The notes beneath the pieces are model-generated. The model had not been told where the DNA came from. It saw nothing but the letters and a program-made list of their open reading frames with translations, and did no database searches. Both the position numbers and the translations under genes were made by a program. 64,000 nucleotides of DNA from contig JAIQFY010000008.1 in the NCBI GenBank assembly GCA_020072965.1, positions 124,001 to 188,000 on the forward strand, written 5' to 3'. This DNA is from Terriglobia bacterium (GTDB lineage Bacteria > Acidobacteriota > Terriglobia > JAIQFV01). Shown piece by piece: positions 11,537 to 17,999 of this stretch. Each line of letters begins with the position of its first letter. Position 1 is the first letter of the stretch.

Positions 11537-13723
11537 ATGAAATTTTTACGTTTGATCGCTCTCCTCATCGCCGCCCTCTTGGTGACGTCGGCTTTGTTGT
11601 TCGCGGACGAGGGTATGTGGATGCCGCAGCAAATCCCCGAGCTGGCGGCCAAGCTTCAGGCCATGGGGTTCAAGGGGGATCCGAAAGCTTTTGCTGACCT
11701 GACCGGCCAGCCCATGGGTGCCATCGTATCGTTGGGTGGGTGCACGGCATCGTTTGTCTCGCCCGATGGCTTGATCGCCACCAATCATCACTGTGTTACC
11801 GGCACGCTGCAGTTCAACTCAACCCCCGAACGGAACCTGCTCCGTGACGGCTATCTTGCCAAGACGCGCACCGACGAGTTGTGGAATGGTCCCAGCTCTC
11901 GGGTTCTCGTCACGACCTCGGTGACCGAAGTCACTGCGGCCATCACCGGCGGCATCGATCCGAAACTGACTGACCGTCAGCGTTACGACCTTATCGAGCG
12001 CCGCATCAAAGAGCGGGTCGCCGCCTGCGAAAAGGGGGGTCTGCGCTGCAACGTGGCGTCCTTCTTTTCGGGTCTCAAGTATTTCGAGATCGCCCAAATG
12101 GAGATCAAAGACGTGCGGCTAGTCTACTCGCCTCACGAAGGGATCGGCGTGTTTGGGGGCGAGACCGACAACTGGCGTTGGCCCCGTCATACCGGGGACT
12201 GGTCCTTTCTACGCGCCTATGTGGGCAAAGACGGGAAACCGGCTGAACATTCAAATGAGAACGTCCCTTACCATCCCAAGCATTGGCTGAAGGTTTCACC
12301 CGAGGGAGCCAAATCGGGTGAACTCGTGTTTGTGGTGGGCTATCCCGGTCGGACCCTGAGGCACCAAACCTATTCCGAAGTGAAGGAGACGACCGAATGG
12401 TCTTTTCCGCGGTCGATCCGCCTGGGGCAGGAACAACTGGCGATTCTCGATAAGCTCACGAAAGACAACAAGCCGGTCGCCATCAAAGTGGCCGGCCGTG
12501 TTCAAGGTCTCAACAACAGCCTGACGAATCAGAAGGGCATGCTCGAGGGGCTCTCGAAAGGCGGAGTCCTGTCGCAGAAGGAGGTTCAAGAGAAGGGGCT
12601 GGAGAAATGGATTGCTGCCACTCCGGAACGGCAGAAGAAATACGGCGACATCCTGCCGGCCTTGCGCACCCTTCAAGCCGAAAGCGAGAAGACCCGCGAG
12701 CGCAATGCCGTCCTGGGGAGCGTTATCTCATCCTCTTCTTACCTGGGGGCCGCTCAATCGCTCTATATGCTGTCGACCCAGCGGCCGAAGAACGATCTTG
12801 ACCGCGAGCCGGGCTTTCAGCAGCGTGACTGGGGCCGGTTCAAGGAGGGTCAGGACCGCATGCAACGAACCCTGGACGCCACCGTCGACCGGACCCTCCT
12901 CCGATGGGCGATGGGAATGGCCGCGGCGCTTCCTGCCGGCCAGCGCATTGAGCCGCTTGACAAGGCCGCTGGACTTCAAGCGGGTATGGCCAAGGCCGAC
13001 GTTGACAAGGCCGTCGATGCGTTCCTGGACGCCCTTTATGCCAACACCAAGATGGGCGACAAGGAATTTCGTCTCGGCCTGATGGAAAAGAGTACGGCGG
13101 ATCTTGAAGCCACCAAAGACTCCTTCATCCTGCTGGCGGCGGCGCTCCACCCGGTACAGGACGCGAACCGGGAGATTGCCAAAAACCGCGCCGGCGCGTA
13201 TGCCCGCCTCCGTCCGCGCTACATGGAAGCCCTGCTCGCCAAGTCCGGTGGACTCGTTCCCCCCGACGCCAACAGCACTTTGCGGGTCACCTATGGGACC
13301 GTAAAGGGCGTGGATTCGAAAGACGGACTCTTTTACAAAGACCACACCACGCTGGCCGGGATCGTTGAGAAACAGACAGGGGAAGGGGATTTCAACGCCC
13401 CTCAATTCCAGCTCGACGCCATCAAGAAGGTACGGGACGGGAAGAAAACTCCTTATCTCGACGCTACTCTTAAGGATGTGCCTGTAAACTTCCTCTCGAC
13501 CGTTGACACGACGGGAGGAAACTCGGGGTCTCCGACGCTGAACTCCAAGGGTGAACTGGTGGGCCTGCTCTTTGACGGCACTTACGAGACCGTGGCCTCG
13601 AACTTCCTCTTCGACAAGGCCAAGACCCGATCGATCCACGTCGACAGCCGCTACCTGCTGTGGAACATGACCGACGTCGACGGCGCGGAGAATTTGCTGA
13701 AAGAGATGGGAATCGTTAGGTAG
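11537..13723 (+). CDS. S46 family dipeptidyl-peptidase (DPP7-like)
   Basis: 728 residues, typical of S46. A strong AAGGAGG site precedes ATG 11537. A signal peptide spans about residues 1-23, with mature N-terminus near DEGMWMP, the family's usual start. Likely triad: H85 (TNHHC), D221 (RHTGDW) and S663 (TGGNSGSP). The residue 18 positions after the catalytic Ser, which is Gly in DPP7 and Arg in DPP11, is Gly681 here (FDG). This supports DPP7-type removal of dipeptides with hydrophobic P1 residues rather than Asp/Glu. It acts in the periplasm or at the cell surface in peptide use. No operon partner is seen; a perfect hairpin follows the stop at 13739-13760. Confidence 0.95.
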   Translation: MKFLRLIALLIAALLVTSALLFADEGMWMPQQIPELAAKLQAMGFKGDPKAFADLTGQPMGAIVSLGGCTASFVSPDGLIATNHHCVTGTLQFNSTPERNLLRDGYLAKTRTDELWNGPSSRVLVTTSVTEVTAAITGGIDPKLTDRQRYDLIERRIKERVAACEKGGLRCNVASFFSGLKYFEIAQMEIKDVRLVYSPHEGIGVFGGETDNWRWPRHTGDWSFLRAYVGKDGKPAEHSNENVPYHPKHWLKVSPEGAKSGELVFVVGYPGRTLRHQTYSEVKETTEWSFPRSIRLGQEQLAILDKLTKDNKPVAIKVAGRVQGLNNSLTNQKGMLEGLSKGGVLSQKEVQEKGLEKWIAATPERQKKYGDILPALRTLQAESEKTRERNAVLGSVISSSSYLGAAQSLYMLSTQRPKNDLDREPGFQQRDWGRFKEGQDRMQRTLDATVDRTLLRWAMGMAAALPAGQRIEPLDKAAGLQAGMAKADVDKAVDAFLDALYANTKMGDKEFRLGLMEKSTADLEATKDSFILLAAALHPVQDANREIAKNRAGAYARLRPRYMEALLAKSGGLVPPDANSTLRVTYGTVKGVDSKDGLFYKDHTTLAGIVEKQTGEGDFNAPQFQLDAIKKVRDGKKTPYLDATLKDVPVNFLSTVDTTGGNSGSPTLNSKGELVGLLFDGTYETVASNFLFDKAKTRSIHVDSRYLLWNMTDVDGAENLLKEMGIVR

Positions 13724-13760: not shown

Positions 13761-14186
13761 TTCGTAATAATGAGGGACTGGCATCTCTTGCAATGTCCTT
13801 TTGATGAAGCCAACAATTGGGGGCCTGTCCCTTCTTGATGTGGCACTCTGGCCGGAGCTTGTGGTTTACTTGTGCGATCATTGGGAGTTACCTGTTTTAT
13901 GCTTCTTTTCTCTAAGGTCTGATCCGATTCAGGCGGCTTCTCAGAAATCTACGAAAACACCGTGTTGAATAAACGTCCTAATGGACAGGAATGATCGCGA
14001 TTAGCATTTTTGAAAAGCGATCCCGTTGCACTATTGCTATTCGATTAAACTTCGCAAGCAAGCGTTGAAACAAAGAATGAATTCGGGTCAGACTTCAATT
14101 TTTGCTAATCAGTCAAGTAATTGTCTGAGAGTTCTCGAACGACTGGTTCTGATCACATTTTCTTCCTCAATATTACGGAGGTACTC

Positions 14187-14618
14187 ATGAAGACAGTCAG
14201 TTGGATTTTGCTTGTGCTCGTCGGCGCTCTGACTCTTGTAGGCGGCATGGGGTCCGCCTGGGTCGCATTGAGTCAGTCCCCGGACGGGCTGGTGGGGCCT
14301 GGAATGACCCTGATTGACGTCCAGGCGCCCGCGGACGTGGTTCGTTCAATCCGCGGGCGGCGTGTGACGGCCGCCGCTTACGCCGCCGGGTATGCCGTGC
14401 TTTTTCTGGCCGTGGTGCTGTTTCCTTATCGGCGCGGCGAGGTGTGGAGCTGGTGGGCAATCCTCGTGGCGTCGCTGGTCCTCCTGGGAGTGATTGTTCT
14501 GCGGGTGCCCATGCTCGGCACGCGGTCCGCAGTCGGCGTGGCTTTGATCCAATTTGGGATTGTGATCATCGCCCTGCTGCTCGATGTCGGTCGACTGCGC
14601 CGTATGACTCCGGCATAG
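14187..14618 (+). CDS. Small integral membrane protein of unknown function
   Basis: 143 residues. A longer frame begins at 14121, but GGAGGT at 14177-14182 places the start at ATG 14187, where a hydrophobic N-terminus begins (MKTVSWILLVLVGALTLVGG). Four membrane segments are visible: residues 3-25, about 62-82, 90-108 and 115-133. An extracytoplasmic loop lies between the first two and a short basic tail (GRLRRMTPA) follows the last. I do not recognise the family. It is monocistronic, followed by the hairpin array at 14683-14855. Confidence 0.75.
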   Translation: MKTVSWILLVLVGALTLVGGMGSAWVALSQSPDGLVGPGMTLIDVQAPADVVRSIRGRRVTAAAYAAGYAVLFLAVVLFPYRRGEVWSWWAILVASLVLLGVIVLRVPMLGTRSAVGVALIQFGIVIIALLLDVGRLRRMTPA

Positions 14619-14682: not shown

Positions 14683-14855
14683 CGGGGGCTCTGCCCCGCA
14701 CTATTGCGGAAAGCCTATGGCTTTCCGGAGTTAGGCAACTCAGTCTTTCGTTTGTTTCGGCGAGGCTCAGCCTCGCCGATAAAAAACGGAGAAGAAACGA
14801 CCGGAGTTGCCTTGGAAAGGCCGAGCCTTTCCACAATAATGAGCGGCAGAGCCGC
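14683..14855. repeat. Array of five short hairpins, most with 3-nt loops
   Basis: Five successive perfect stem-loops: 14683-14698 (GGGGC/GCCCC core, loop TCT), 14707-14727 (CGGAAAGCC/GGCTTTCCG, loop TAT), 14758-14778 (CGGCGAGGC/GCCTCGCCG, loop TCA), 14814-14832 (GGAAAGGC/GCCTTTCC, loop CGA) and 14843-14855 (GCGGC/GCCGC, loop AGA). In addition GGCAACTC at 14734-14741 can pair with GAGTTGCC at 14804-14811, enclosing the third hairpin. No gene is supported in 14619-15130. This may be an extragenic palindrome cluster or a structured RNA. Confidence 0.75.
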
Positions 14856-15130
14856 CGCGAGTGAGCATCTTGCGCTTTCTCAGACGGTAACGGTGAACGT
14901 TCAATTGATTTTGCATCCCGAAGGGCCGAAACCCAAACAAGACTTTGCCGTGCATCCGAGAGGCCAGAGCAACAGCGCCGATGCAAAGCTTCTCAACAAA
15001 TCAAGTTCTTTTTAGATTGATGGCTTTTAGCCTCCTGCTTTCCTGGTTTCCTAATCATAAGTTGTTCAGCTATTGTCGCCCGAAATTTAGATGGTACGTT
15101 CCTAACCGATGATGTGAGAGGAGAGACAAG

Positions 15131-15538
15131 ATGATTTCCTGCCGTGTGGCGTTGTGTGCTGAATCAGTGGTCAAGGATGCCGATACCAATTCCGTCTCGG
15201 TATTCAACATTTTTGAAGAGATGGTCCCCAGTGGTTTTCCATTCGCCTTACCCAAGATGAATTGTGTTTTTTTCACAGAATTTCAAGGTGAACAGGGACA
15301 GATCGTCCCCGCTTTGCTGCGTATTACATGGGGAGAGACCGAACTTTTCAAACGCCCCATCCAGATTGACTTCAGAGAGAATTTCACAAGTCGACTGATT
15401 TTCCACTTTCACGGGATGCCGATCCAGGGTCCCGGCACGGTCCGGGTGGCGCTCATTCACGAAGATCAGGATATCGGTGGATGGAGCTTTGAAATAAGGG
15501 AGCCACAGCAGCCTGAAACCAAGACGCAGGAACCTTAA
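15131..15538 (+). CDS. DUF6941-like small protein
   Basis: 135 residues with a purine-rich ribosome site (GAGAGGAGAGAC) before ATG 15131. No signal peptide or membrane segment. The beta-rich sequence begins CRVALCAESVVKDADTNSVSVFNIFEEM, which resembles the DUF6941 family, small single-domain proteins of unknown function that start with a similar 'inventory of gene, expression, task' strand pattern. The C-terminus after residue 122 is a short polar tail. It is followed 64 nt later by the Ser/Thr kinase gene, so the two may share a transcript. Function unknown; the family assignment is from memory of the pattern. Confidence 0.7.
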   Translation: MISCRVALCAESVVKDADTNSVSVFNIFEEMVPSGFPFALPKMNCVFFTEFQGEQGQIVPALLRITWGETELFKRPIQIDFRENFTSRLIFHFHGMPIQGPGTVRVALIHEDQDIGGWSFEIREPQQPETKTQEP

Positions 15539-15602: not shown

Positions 15603-17999
15603 GTGCAGCGCGAGGGGAGCGAGCGGTCTGCGTTTCTGGATGAGGCGTGTGCTGGCGACGAATCGCTGCGAAGGGAAGTCGACACCATGCTGGCCTCCGA
15701 CGAGCAGGCCCGAAGCTCCCTCGAACGTCCGGCGGCTGGTGGGATTTCAGATTTTTCGAGAGGCGAGAAGGCTCACTCTGTGATCGGACACATGATCGGA
15801 CCTTACAGGATCACTGCGGCCCTCGGAGCTGGCGGGATGGGTGAGGTCTATCTGGCCCAGGACACGCGACTGAATCGCCCGGTGGCAATCAAGTTCCTCC
15901 CGCCGGAATCGGTGGCCGATGATATCGCCAAGAAACGTCTGATGCGGGAAGCGCAGGCCGCCGCCAAACTCGACCATCCCAATATTTGTACGGTCCACGA
16001 TGTGGGCGAAGAAGGGGGCAGCACTTTTATTGTCATGCAATATGTGGAGGGGGAAACGCTCGCGGATCGACTGAGACGTCAGCCCTTGGAACTAGAAGAG
16101 TCGATAGATTTCGCGCTGCAGGTGGCTGATGCCTTGGTAGAAGCCCATTTGCACGGGATCATCCATCGCGATATCAAGCCTCAAAACATCATGATCACTC
16201 CGAAAAATCAGATCAAAGTCCTGGACTTCGGCTTGGCAAAGGAAGTCGTGGGCAACACGCCGACTAAGGACGGATCCGCCACCGCAAGTTTTGCCACTGA
16301 GCCCGGGTTGTTGATGGGGACCGCGCCGTACATGTCCCCTGAGCAGGTGCAGGGAAAGCCGGTCGACGCCCGGAGTGACATCTTCTCTTTTGGAGGGGTG
16401 CTGTACGAGATGTTAGCCGGACGCCGGGCCTTCGGCGGAGAGTCAGGCATTGCGATTGTCACCGCAATCCTGCGCGACGAACCGACTCCCCTTGACGGGG
16501 TGCCGCCTGAACTGGCGGGTGTCGTGAGCCGTTGCCTTCAGAAGGATCCGGCCATGCGCTACACTCAAGTTTCTGATGTTAAATCCGCGCTGGAGCGGCT
16601 GCGCAACGCCACGGCGACCTCGCGCGAGCCAGCCCCATCCATTGCCGTACTCCCTTTTGCCAACCTCAGTGCGGACAAGGAAAACGAGTACTTTAGCGAC
16701 GGGCTGGCGGAGGAGATCCTAAACGCGCTCAGCCGCGTCCCCGGCCTGAAGGTCACCGCCCGAACCTCGGCCTTCGCCTTTCGCGGCAAGGAACAAGACA
16801 TCCGCAAGATTGGCGAGGCGCTGGACGTGCGCACGGTTCTGGAAGGCAGCGTGCGCCGCTCCGGCAATCGCATTCGCGTGACGGCGCAGTTGATTAATGT
16901 CGCTGATGGATACCATCTGTGGTCGGACCGCTACGACCGCGAAATGACGGATGTCTTCGCAGTGCAGGATGAGATTGCGCAAGCCATCGTCGGCATGCTC
17001 AAGGTGCGGCTTGCTGCTAAAGGGGCGCCGTTGGTGCGGCAGGCTGCGAGCATCGAGGCCTATCATGCCAATTTGAAAGGCTGGTACCATTTTTTCAAAA
17101 TGAGTCCGCCTGAGATGGCTCGCAGTAAGGCCTATTTTGAAGAGGCTATTGCGCTTGATCCCGAATATGCACCGGCCTATTTGGGACTGGCAAGATGCTT
17201 CCTCATTAGCCCCGTCATGGGAGGAAGACAGGCCCGTGAGGTGATGCCTCTGGCGAAGGCCGCGGCGCTCAAGGCGGTCGAACTTGACGACAGGGAGCCG
17301 GAAGGGCATGTGCTTTTGGGACAAGTGGCAGGCCAGTTTGAATACGACTGGAATGAAGCGCGGCGACGGTATCAACTCGCCCTGGCCCGCGAGCCGATGT
17401 CGTCGAGGGCCCGTTTCAACTGTGCCCAGTTTATCCTTATGCCGCTTCATCGCTTCGATGAAGCGATCGCCCTGCTCGAACCGGCGCTCCAAGCCGACCC
17501 GCTTTCACCCTTCCCGCGCATGGCGCTGGCGGGGGTACTCAACGCCCAAGGATCCGATGACCTCGCCATAGGGGAGTTACATCGCCTGCTTGAATTCGAT
17601 GATTACTGGTTTGCGCACTTTGAACTCGGTCTGATCTACACGAATAAAGGGATGGTGCCGGAGGCGGCCGCAGCATGGGAAAAGGGGCTTCAACTCGTGC
17701 CGTACCCTGGCATGATCGGTGGCCTGGCGGGGCATTATGCAAGGTCCGGAAACCGGCCTCGCGCCGAGGACCTGCTCGCACGTCTGGATTCCCCGGAACT
17801 AGCTCAAGGCCGCGCCATTGGCTACGGATTCTTTCATTTGGTCTGCTCGGAATTCGACCTCGCCGCCGATCAATTCGAAAAAGCAATTGAAGCGCGCGAC
17901 CCCAGCGCCATCTTTCTCAGCCACTTGCCCGTTGTGCATAACCTTCCACGCTGGCGGGCGCTATTAAAGAAAATGAACCTGGCGGACGTCGGATCGTAG
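15603..17999 (+). CDS. Soluble Ser/Thr protein kinase with TolB/FlgO-like domain and TPR repeats
   Basis: 798 residues from a GTG start. The kinase domain (about 67-330) has the glycine loop G75-G80, K97, HRDIKPQN with D190 and DFG with D208, so it should be active. A domain starting PSIAVLPFANLS (about 347-480) matches the FlgO/TolB-N-like module common in acidobacterial kinases. TPR-like repeats fill 490-790. No transmembrane helix is seen, unlike many PknB-type kinases. The N-terminus begins inside a motif (ERSAFLDEACAGDESLRREV) that in relatives follows about 20 further residues. The in-frame upstream sequence has only eight codons without ATG before a stop, so the start is uncertain or the N-terminus is truncated. 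Confidence 0.9.
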   Translation: MQREGSERSAFLDEACAGDESLRREVDTMLASDEQARSSLERPAAGGISDFSRGEKAHSVIGHMIGPYRITAALGAGGMGEVYLAQDTRLNRPVAIKFLPPESVADDIAKKRLMREAQAAAKLDHPNICTVHDVGEEGGSTFIVMQYVEGETLADRLRRQPLELEESIDFALQVADALVEAHLHGIIHRDIKPQNIMITPKNQIKVLDFGLAKEVVGNTPTKDGSATASFATEPGLLMGTAPYMSPEQVQGKPVDARSDIFSFGGVLYEMLAGRRAFGGESGIAIVTAILRDEPTPLDGVPPELAGVVSRCLQKDPAMRYTQVSDVKSALERLRNATATSREPAPSIAVLPFANLSADKENEYFSDGLAEEILNALSRVPGLKVTARTSAFAFRGKEQDIRKIGEALDVRTVLEGSVRRSGNRIRVTAQLINVADGYHLWSDRYDREMTDVFAVQDEIAQAIVGMLKVRLAAKGAPLVRQAASIEAYHANLKGWYHFFKMSPPEMARSKAYFEEAIALDPEYAPAYLGLARCFLISPVMGGRQAREVMPLAKAAALKAVELDDREPEGHVLLGQVAGQFEYDWNEARRRYQLALAREPMSSRARFNCAQFILMPLHRFDEAIALLEPALQADPLSPFPRMALAGVLNAQGSDDLAIGELHRLLEFDDYWFAHFELGLIYTNKGMVPEAAAAWEKGLQLVPYPGMIGGLAGHYARSGNRPRAEDLLARLDSPELAQGRAIGYGFFHLVCSEFDLAADQFEKAIEARDPSAIFLSHLPVVHNLPRWRALLKKMNLADVGS

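Follow-up and report, generated by a model that had tools for sequence, protein, structure and literature searches.

A five-hairpin array in a Terriglobia genome as a probable REPIN-like dimer related to an Acidobacteriota RAYT clade

As described in PMC8266576 and PMC6006769, the RAYT (or TnpAREP) protein binds REP hairpins in single-stranded DNA and makes its cut next to them, with the foot tetranucleotide as its guide. The account of Quentin et al. 2018 (PMC6006769) also includes atypical structures without GT[AG]G lying beside TnpAY1 genes, assigned there to subclass 2.6 and class 3, the latter including an Acidobacterium in which copies number about 600. TIRtrons and their TIRYTs were described by Di Nocera et al. 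2013 (PMC3733652) as RAYT-like genes lying between inverted repeats of non-REP type; these repeats are given as partly "double palindromic" and as occurring in dimers elsewhere in the genome, and an Acidobacteria-specific protein group is named in that text. Among the matches listed there was no other paper on TIRYT, or on RAYT in Acidobacteria.

The locus studied here belongs to a window (the whole stretch of DNA analyzed, 64,000 nucleotides of a Terriglobia bacterium contig) and comprises five short hairpins with the loops TCT, TAT, TCA, CGA and AGA, each of which was found exactly where a preliminary description had placed it; the 8-bp long-range helix that it had proposed likewise matches the sequence exactly. 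The features are as follows.

14121-14618, plus strand: upstream hydrophobic ORF of 165 aa with no Pfam match, stopping 64 nt 5' of the element (context only).
14683-14857, no strand assigned: whole five-hairpin element, probably a non-autonomous RAYT-associated dimer; its own two ends are an 80% inverted repeat.
14685-14697, no strand assigned: H1, GGGGC-TCT-GCCCC; most other copies have GCGGC/GCCGC.
14707-14727, no strand assigned: H2, CGGAAAGCC-TAT-GGCTTTCCG; the hairpin type flanking the RAYT clade.
14734-14741, no strand assigned: left arm of the 8-bp long-range helix.
14757-14779, no strand assigned: H3, central, TCGGCGAGGC-TCA-GCCTCGCCGA; shared by only part of the dimer's relatives.
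14804-14811, no strand assigned: right arm of the 8-bp long-range helix.
14814-14832, no strand assigned: H4, GGAAAGGC-CGA-GCCTTTCC; inverted counterpart of H2.
14843-14855, no strand assigned: H5, GCGGC-AGA-GCCGC; inverted counterpart of H1.
15131-15538, plus strand: downstream ORF of 135 aa, DUF6941 (context only).

An S46 peptidase is encoded upstream of the array at 11537-13723, and a serine/threonine kinase with TPR repeats further downstream at 15603-17999.

The array is a palindrome of palindromes: a two-hairpin unit (H1-H2), the central H3 and the inverted unit H4-H5. The inverted repeat is formed by the outer arms 14683-14726 and 14814-14857, a point absent from the preliminary description. 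A fold of 221 nt reached -114.7 kcal/mol where shuffles averaged -75.6 (z -8.09), and the opposite strand gave -110.5 kcal/mol (z -8.08); in neither case was any of 200 shuffles as low. These values lie far below the shuffles on either strand because the outer arms form an inverted repeat, H1-H2 mirroring H4-H5, and the similar folding of the two strands follows from the palindromic build of the array at two levels; the MFE structure is a single large cruciform with H2, H3 and H4 as its side arms.

When a 201-base query was compared with the genome from which the window comes (5.9 Mb; hereafter the own genome), 29 similarity matches were obtained at 18 places, and the core motif (linker plus H5, at most two mismatches) gave 32 matches, compared with none in a reversed control. 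The preliminary description had named the joint absence of covariation and of other copies as evidence against its proposal; both are present here. An HMM of the end unit recovered the two units of the window in inverted orientation and, elsewhere, mostly inverted pairs. At the DNA level the element was matched in three of the 41 genomes searched: its own, G001 (a sister species within the genus) and G003 (from a different family in the class). At L012, L007 (1471-1660), L011 and L006, an extra hairpin, TCCGCC..GGCGGA or TCCCGC..GCGGGA, replaces the inter-hairpin linker CAATAATGA.

In G003 one unit sits directly behind a gene, the order of the locus being H1, H2, H3, a 188-aa RAYT, H3', H4, H5. 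When 299 genomes of the class were searched with this protein, the own genome yielded a single homologue (51% identity, C20:63076-63612); its ORF, taken from the ATG, spans C20:63061-63618 and is bracketed by two full copies of the element, at C20:62590-62907 and C20:63677-63866. Against the NCBIfam model REP_Tyr_transpos (NF047646, cut-off 80) the own-genome RAYT scored 80.5 bits and that of G003 72.9 bits, under the cut-off. Residues H60 and H62 (the HxH, or HUH, motif) are invariant in six of six relatives, as is the downstream Y137, which we take to be the catalytic tyrosine from the motif VNYIHxNPV. A structure model of the clade member L106 (mean pLDDT 92.4) displayed the Y1 HUH transposase fold, its best PDB match (E 1.7e-7) being 4er8, in which a RAYT is in complex with a REP hairpin; searching the PDB by sequence gave weak matches only, the best with E 0.2.

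A search for the cognate transposase with PF01797 had pointed elsewhere, to 36 other Y1 matches, and the unit was absent from all 30 loci inspected among these; the cognate gene was missed by that search because of its low Pfam score (20.4 bits for Y1_Tnp, under the cut-off of 23) and was found only through its G003 homologue. These 36 Y1_Tnp matches (L030-L059 among them) are many for one genome, and one of the loci, L032 on C99, holds some ten copies of a repeat of roughly 40 nt, which also adjoins the C55 copy of the element. On C20, the copy of the element that precedes the RAYT gene contains a 139-bp insert (L007, 421-559) lying exactly within the H2 triloop and ending in the terminal repeats GAGACTGTGTCAAAAC..GTTTTGACACAGTCTC; when the insert is removed along with a single copy of a TCC repeat, H2 is again a perfect hairpin, and the insert thus resembles a second miniature element that landed in the loop. 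In another genome, G119, tandem arrays of the two-hairpin unit, with about 75-95 nt per repeat, flank the RAYT gene (L098).

To evaluate the unit across the phylum, contigs were scanned with an alignment of six proteins; 80 loci were kept and 42 (L105-L146) analyzed, all of them assigned to Acidobacteriota by record title and sharing 44-59% identity; the full-length relatives that come next belong to other phyla, at near 31%, and a few short Acidobacteriota fragments were left out. Inverted repeats around the gene emerged from a free hairpin search and from comparing one flank with the other: near flanks reached a flank-to-flank inverted-repeat score of at least 20 at 36 of the 42 RAYT loci, compared with one of 38 for distal flanks. 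Moreover, H2-type hairpins were found upstream of the gene at 31 loci, downstream at 34 and on both sides at 30, against 0/37 and 1/39 in the distal controls. Among the 299 class genomes, the two-hairpin pattern was present in 19 (the reversed control in one) and the RAYT clade, at E<=1e-30, in seven; six genomes held both. The unit thus occurs in 6/7 genomes with the clade and in 13/292 of the others (Fisher P 1.9e-7, uncorrected for relatedness). Counting against the reading preferred below, 13 of the 19 unit-positive genomes, the sister species G001 included, have no RAYT of the clade at that threshold, for which gene loss, incomplete assembly or another enzyme moving the unit are alternative explanations.

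The 65 H2 hairpins at these loci comprise 21 distinct stems; four of the 65 hairpins are imperfect, and 57 have triloops. Stem positions 4-8 differ among loci while pairing is maintained by compensatory changes; positions 2, 3 and 9, and nearly position 1, are set by the search pattern, so constancy there is no finding, and since this pattern allowed at most one mismatch the pairing rate is partly selected, which makes the distal controls the fair measure. An H1-type hairpin (stem of at least 5) precedes 51 of the 65, where 5.3 would be expected from shuffles. The four nucleotides 5' of the H2 hairpins are TGTG in 20 cases, TTTG in 13, AGTG in six and TGAG in six, with others in the remainder; the window copy has ATTG, and the canonical REP foot, GTAG or GTGG, is absent 5' of all 65.

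An alignment of 14 copies of the element (13 of the own genome and one of G001) was built without rows C27 and G001_C56 of alignment A1, and H3 was excluded from the count; A1 itself omitted four own-genome places, interrupted or partial (C20a, C20:5501, C12 and C4). Pairing is kept in 97.6% of the 378 stem cells of the 14-copy alignment, compared with 35-48% when the alignment is slid, and seven stem cells are altered on both sides, a number reached by none of 500 shuffles. Two of five measures fail to beat shuffles on this alignment: pairs altered on both sides show no excess (46/500 shuffles as high), nor do further pair types (347/500). Stems keep pairing through change both among copies and across RAYT loci. 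The inverted two-unit dimer occurs in other genomes as well, and a central hairpin (stem of at least 7) was present in seven of 20 dimers examined, one of which was mis-trimmed, against 0.28 expected. We had considered the central hairpin as a defining feature and dropped it on this count; what stays constant is thus the two-unit dimer, the fifth hairpin being optional.

The ends of the element match the flanks of RAYT genes, in its own genome and in related soil bacteria, and the array is thus better read as mobile DNA than as a functional RNA of the locus. We put at roughly 87% the probability that it is a non-autonomous, REPIN-like element whose inverted ends, H1-H2 and H4-H5, belong to an Acidobacteriota clade of RAYT (HUH/Tyr transposase). 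The "REP cluster" of the preliminary description stands in so far as two REP-like two-hairpin units are paired here in inverted orientation and the genome encodes a cognate RAYT, and fails in that there is no canonical GTAG/GTGG. By analogy with described RAYTs, mobilization would involve binding of the protein to H2 and H4 as single-stranded DNA hairpins, probably when replication leaves the locus single-stranded; the RAYT would use H1-H2 and H4-H5 as the ends on which it acts, cut beside the unit and carry the dimer to new sites. The dimer itself may have derived, through gene loss, from an autonomous H1-H2-H3-RAYT-H3'-H4-H5 arrangement such as that of G003. The element has no demonstrated role at the window locus.

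In the own genome, many copies differ in their central hairpin and are embedded in a longer element with outer inverted repeats of its own, of the type CTACTGAGGATGA..AATATAGTGAC, for which 31 matches were found in the genome against none in the control. These copies bear on a second explanation, that the array is a miniature element of another (DDE) transposon and H1-H5 mere internal filler. The near-identical copies C69 and C38 are alike out to the outer ends and begin to diverge there, not at H1/H5; such copies may thus have travelled as passengers of another element. However, the outer repeat is absent from the window copy, from C7 and from both C20 copies, the two-hairpin unit (E<=0.001) lies in only one of six outer-repeat pairs examined (L271), so that the two families are separable, and it is the unit itself that is tied to RAYT genes. 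We thus consider this explanation very improbable, and we read the longer copies as RAYT-type dimers carried within another miniature element. The CTACTGAGGATGA..AATATAGTGAC ends also define a separate miniature family (for instance L244, L260, L268, L269 and L273, the last at 1501), 128-217 bp long in five pairs examined, some members of which enclose other hairpins.

The history of the locus was followed in G001, which holds the orthologous position with flanking DNA 84-91% identical. Only H1 and a mismatched H2 are kept there; about 185 nt, corresponding to window positions 14731-14915 or so, are gone, and the remnant then joins conserved DNA before the next gene. The decayed H1-H2 indicates that the element predates the split of the two species and was eroded in one; this speaks against its being needed at this place, and against a local RNA function. 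A protein search in G002 found no homologue of the window locus. Comparison of the C69 and C42 loci with G001 revealed neither a target-site duplication nor a clean empty site: at the former the element is missing, with 40 bp replacing 488 bp and no clean boundary, and at the latter other DNA is found instead of the element.

A structured RNA (a small RNA or a 3'-UTR element) transcribed downstream of the membrane protein gene, as the preliminary description had alternatively suggested, would agree with the very stable fold (z -8.1), with the position of the array 64 nt 3' of a same-strand ORF and with the pairing of stems maintained across copies. However, the repeat occurs at dispersed sites and has a palindromic build on both strands, which fold equally well; only 3/378 stem cells (14 copies) are G-U; and the sister species retains no more than the decayed left end while its flanks are conserved. 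Rfam held no family for the array at gathering score, and nothing credible at E<=10, where matches were at chance level; no tRNA or tmRNA was found within the window. We give the RNA reading hardly any weight. Scarcely credible, too, is a transcription terminator or mRNA 3'-end stabilizer for the upstream gene, a secondary effect possible for any such repeat: REPs are reported to influence termination and mRNA stability in PMC6006769, and terminator-like matches occur at 14842-14858 on the minus strand, but the two such sites compare with a shuffle mean of 1.5, none lies on the plus strand to serve that gene, and the plus strand has no T-tract after the hairpins.

Read as mobile DNA, a striking structure is explained and a false lead for a functional RNA removed. 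A broader proposal, to which we assign even odds, is that a phylum-wide Acidobacteriota RAYT lineage reads a composite two-hairpin end in place of a GTAG-footed single hairpin, transposase and repeat co-evolving stem by stem. The composite end would consist of a GCGGC hairpin, a linker, usually 8-9 nt long, whose last two bases are mostly TG or AG, and then a CGG-footed triloop hairpin whose stem would drift through compensatory change. If this is true, the co-evolving pairs would be a natural series on how a RAYT recognizes its hairpin; the set is well sampled (42 loci, 21 H2 stem types), allows the RAYT clade to be compared with its hairpins and bears on substrate choice by such transposases without a GTAG guide.

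Compared with known systems, the array resembles a REPIN in having two hairpin-bearing ends, inverted, and in being short, dispersed and non-coding, and its copies flank a cognate RAYT gene in the manner of a REPtron, on both sides in its own C20 and at 30 of the 42 related loci. It differs in that each end has two hairpins where a REPIN has one, in lacking a GTAG/GTGG foot and in its low copy number (about 20). Likened by the descriptions in PMC6006769, it shares with class 3 and subclass 2.6 a REP-like structure without GT[AG]G beside a transposase, whereas the foot given there for class 3 is CnGA and subclass 2.6 is mainly from Bacteroidetes. With TIRtrons, as the text of PMC3733652 describes them, it shares a RAYT-type gene between non-REP inverted repeats and copies in the form of dimers; a five-hairpin dimer with a shared central hairpin and conservation of the unit across a phylum are both absent from the description given there (section 16). 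Set apart by these descriptions, the element appears as an addition to the known TIRtron/TIRYT kind, with a foot and a two-hairpin unit that we did not see in the accounts cited.
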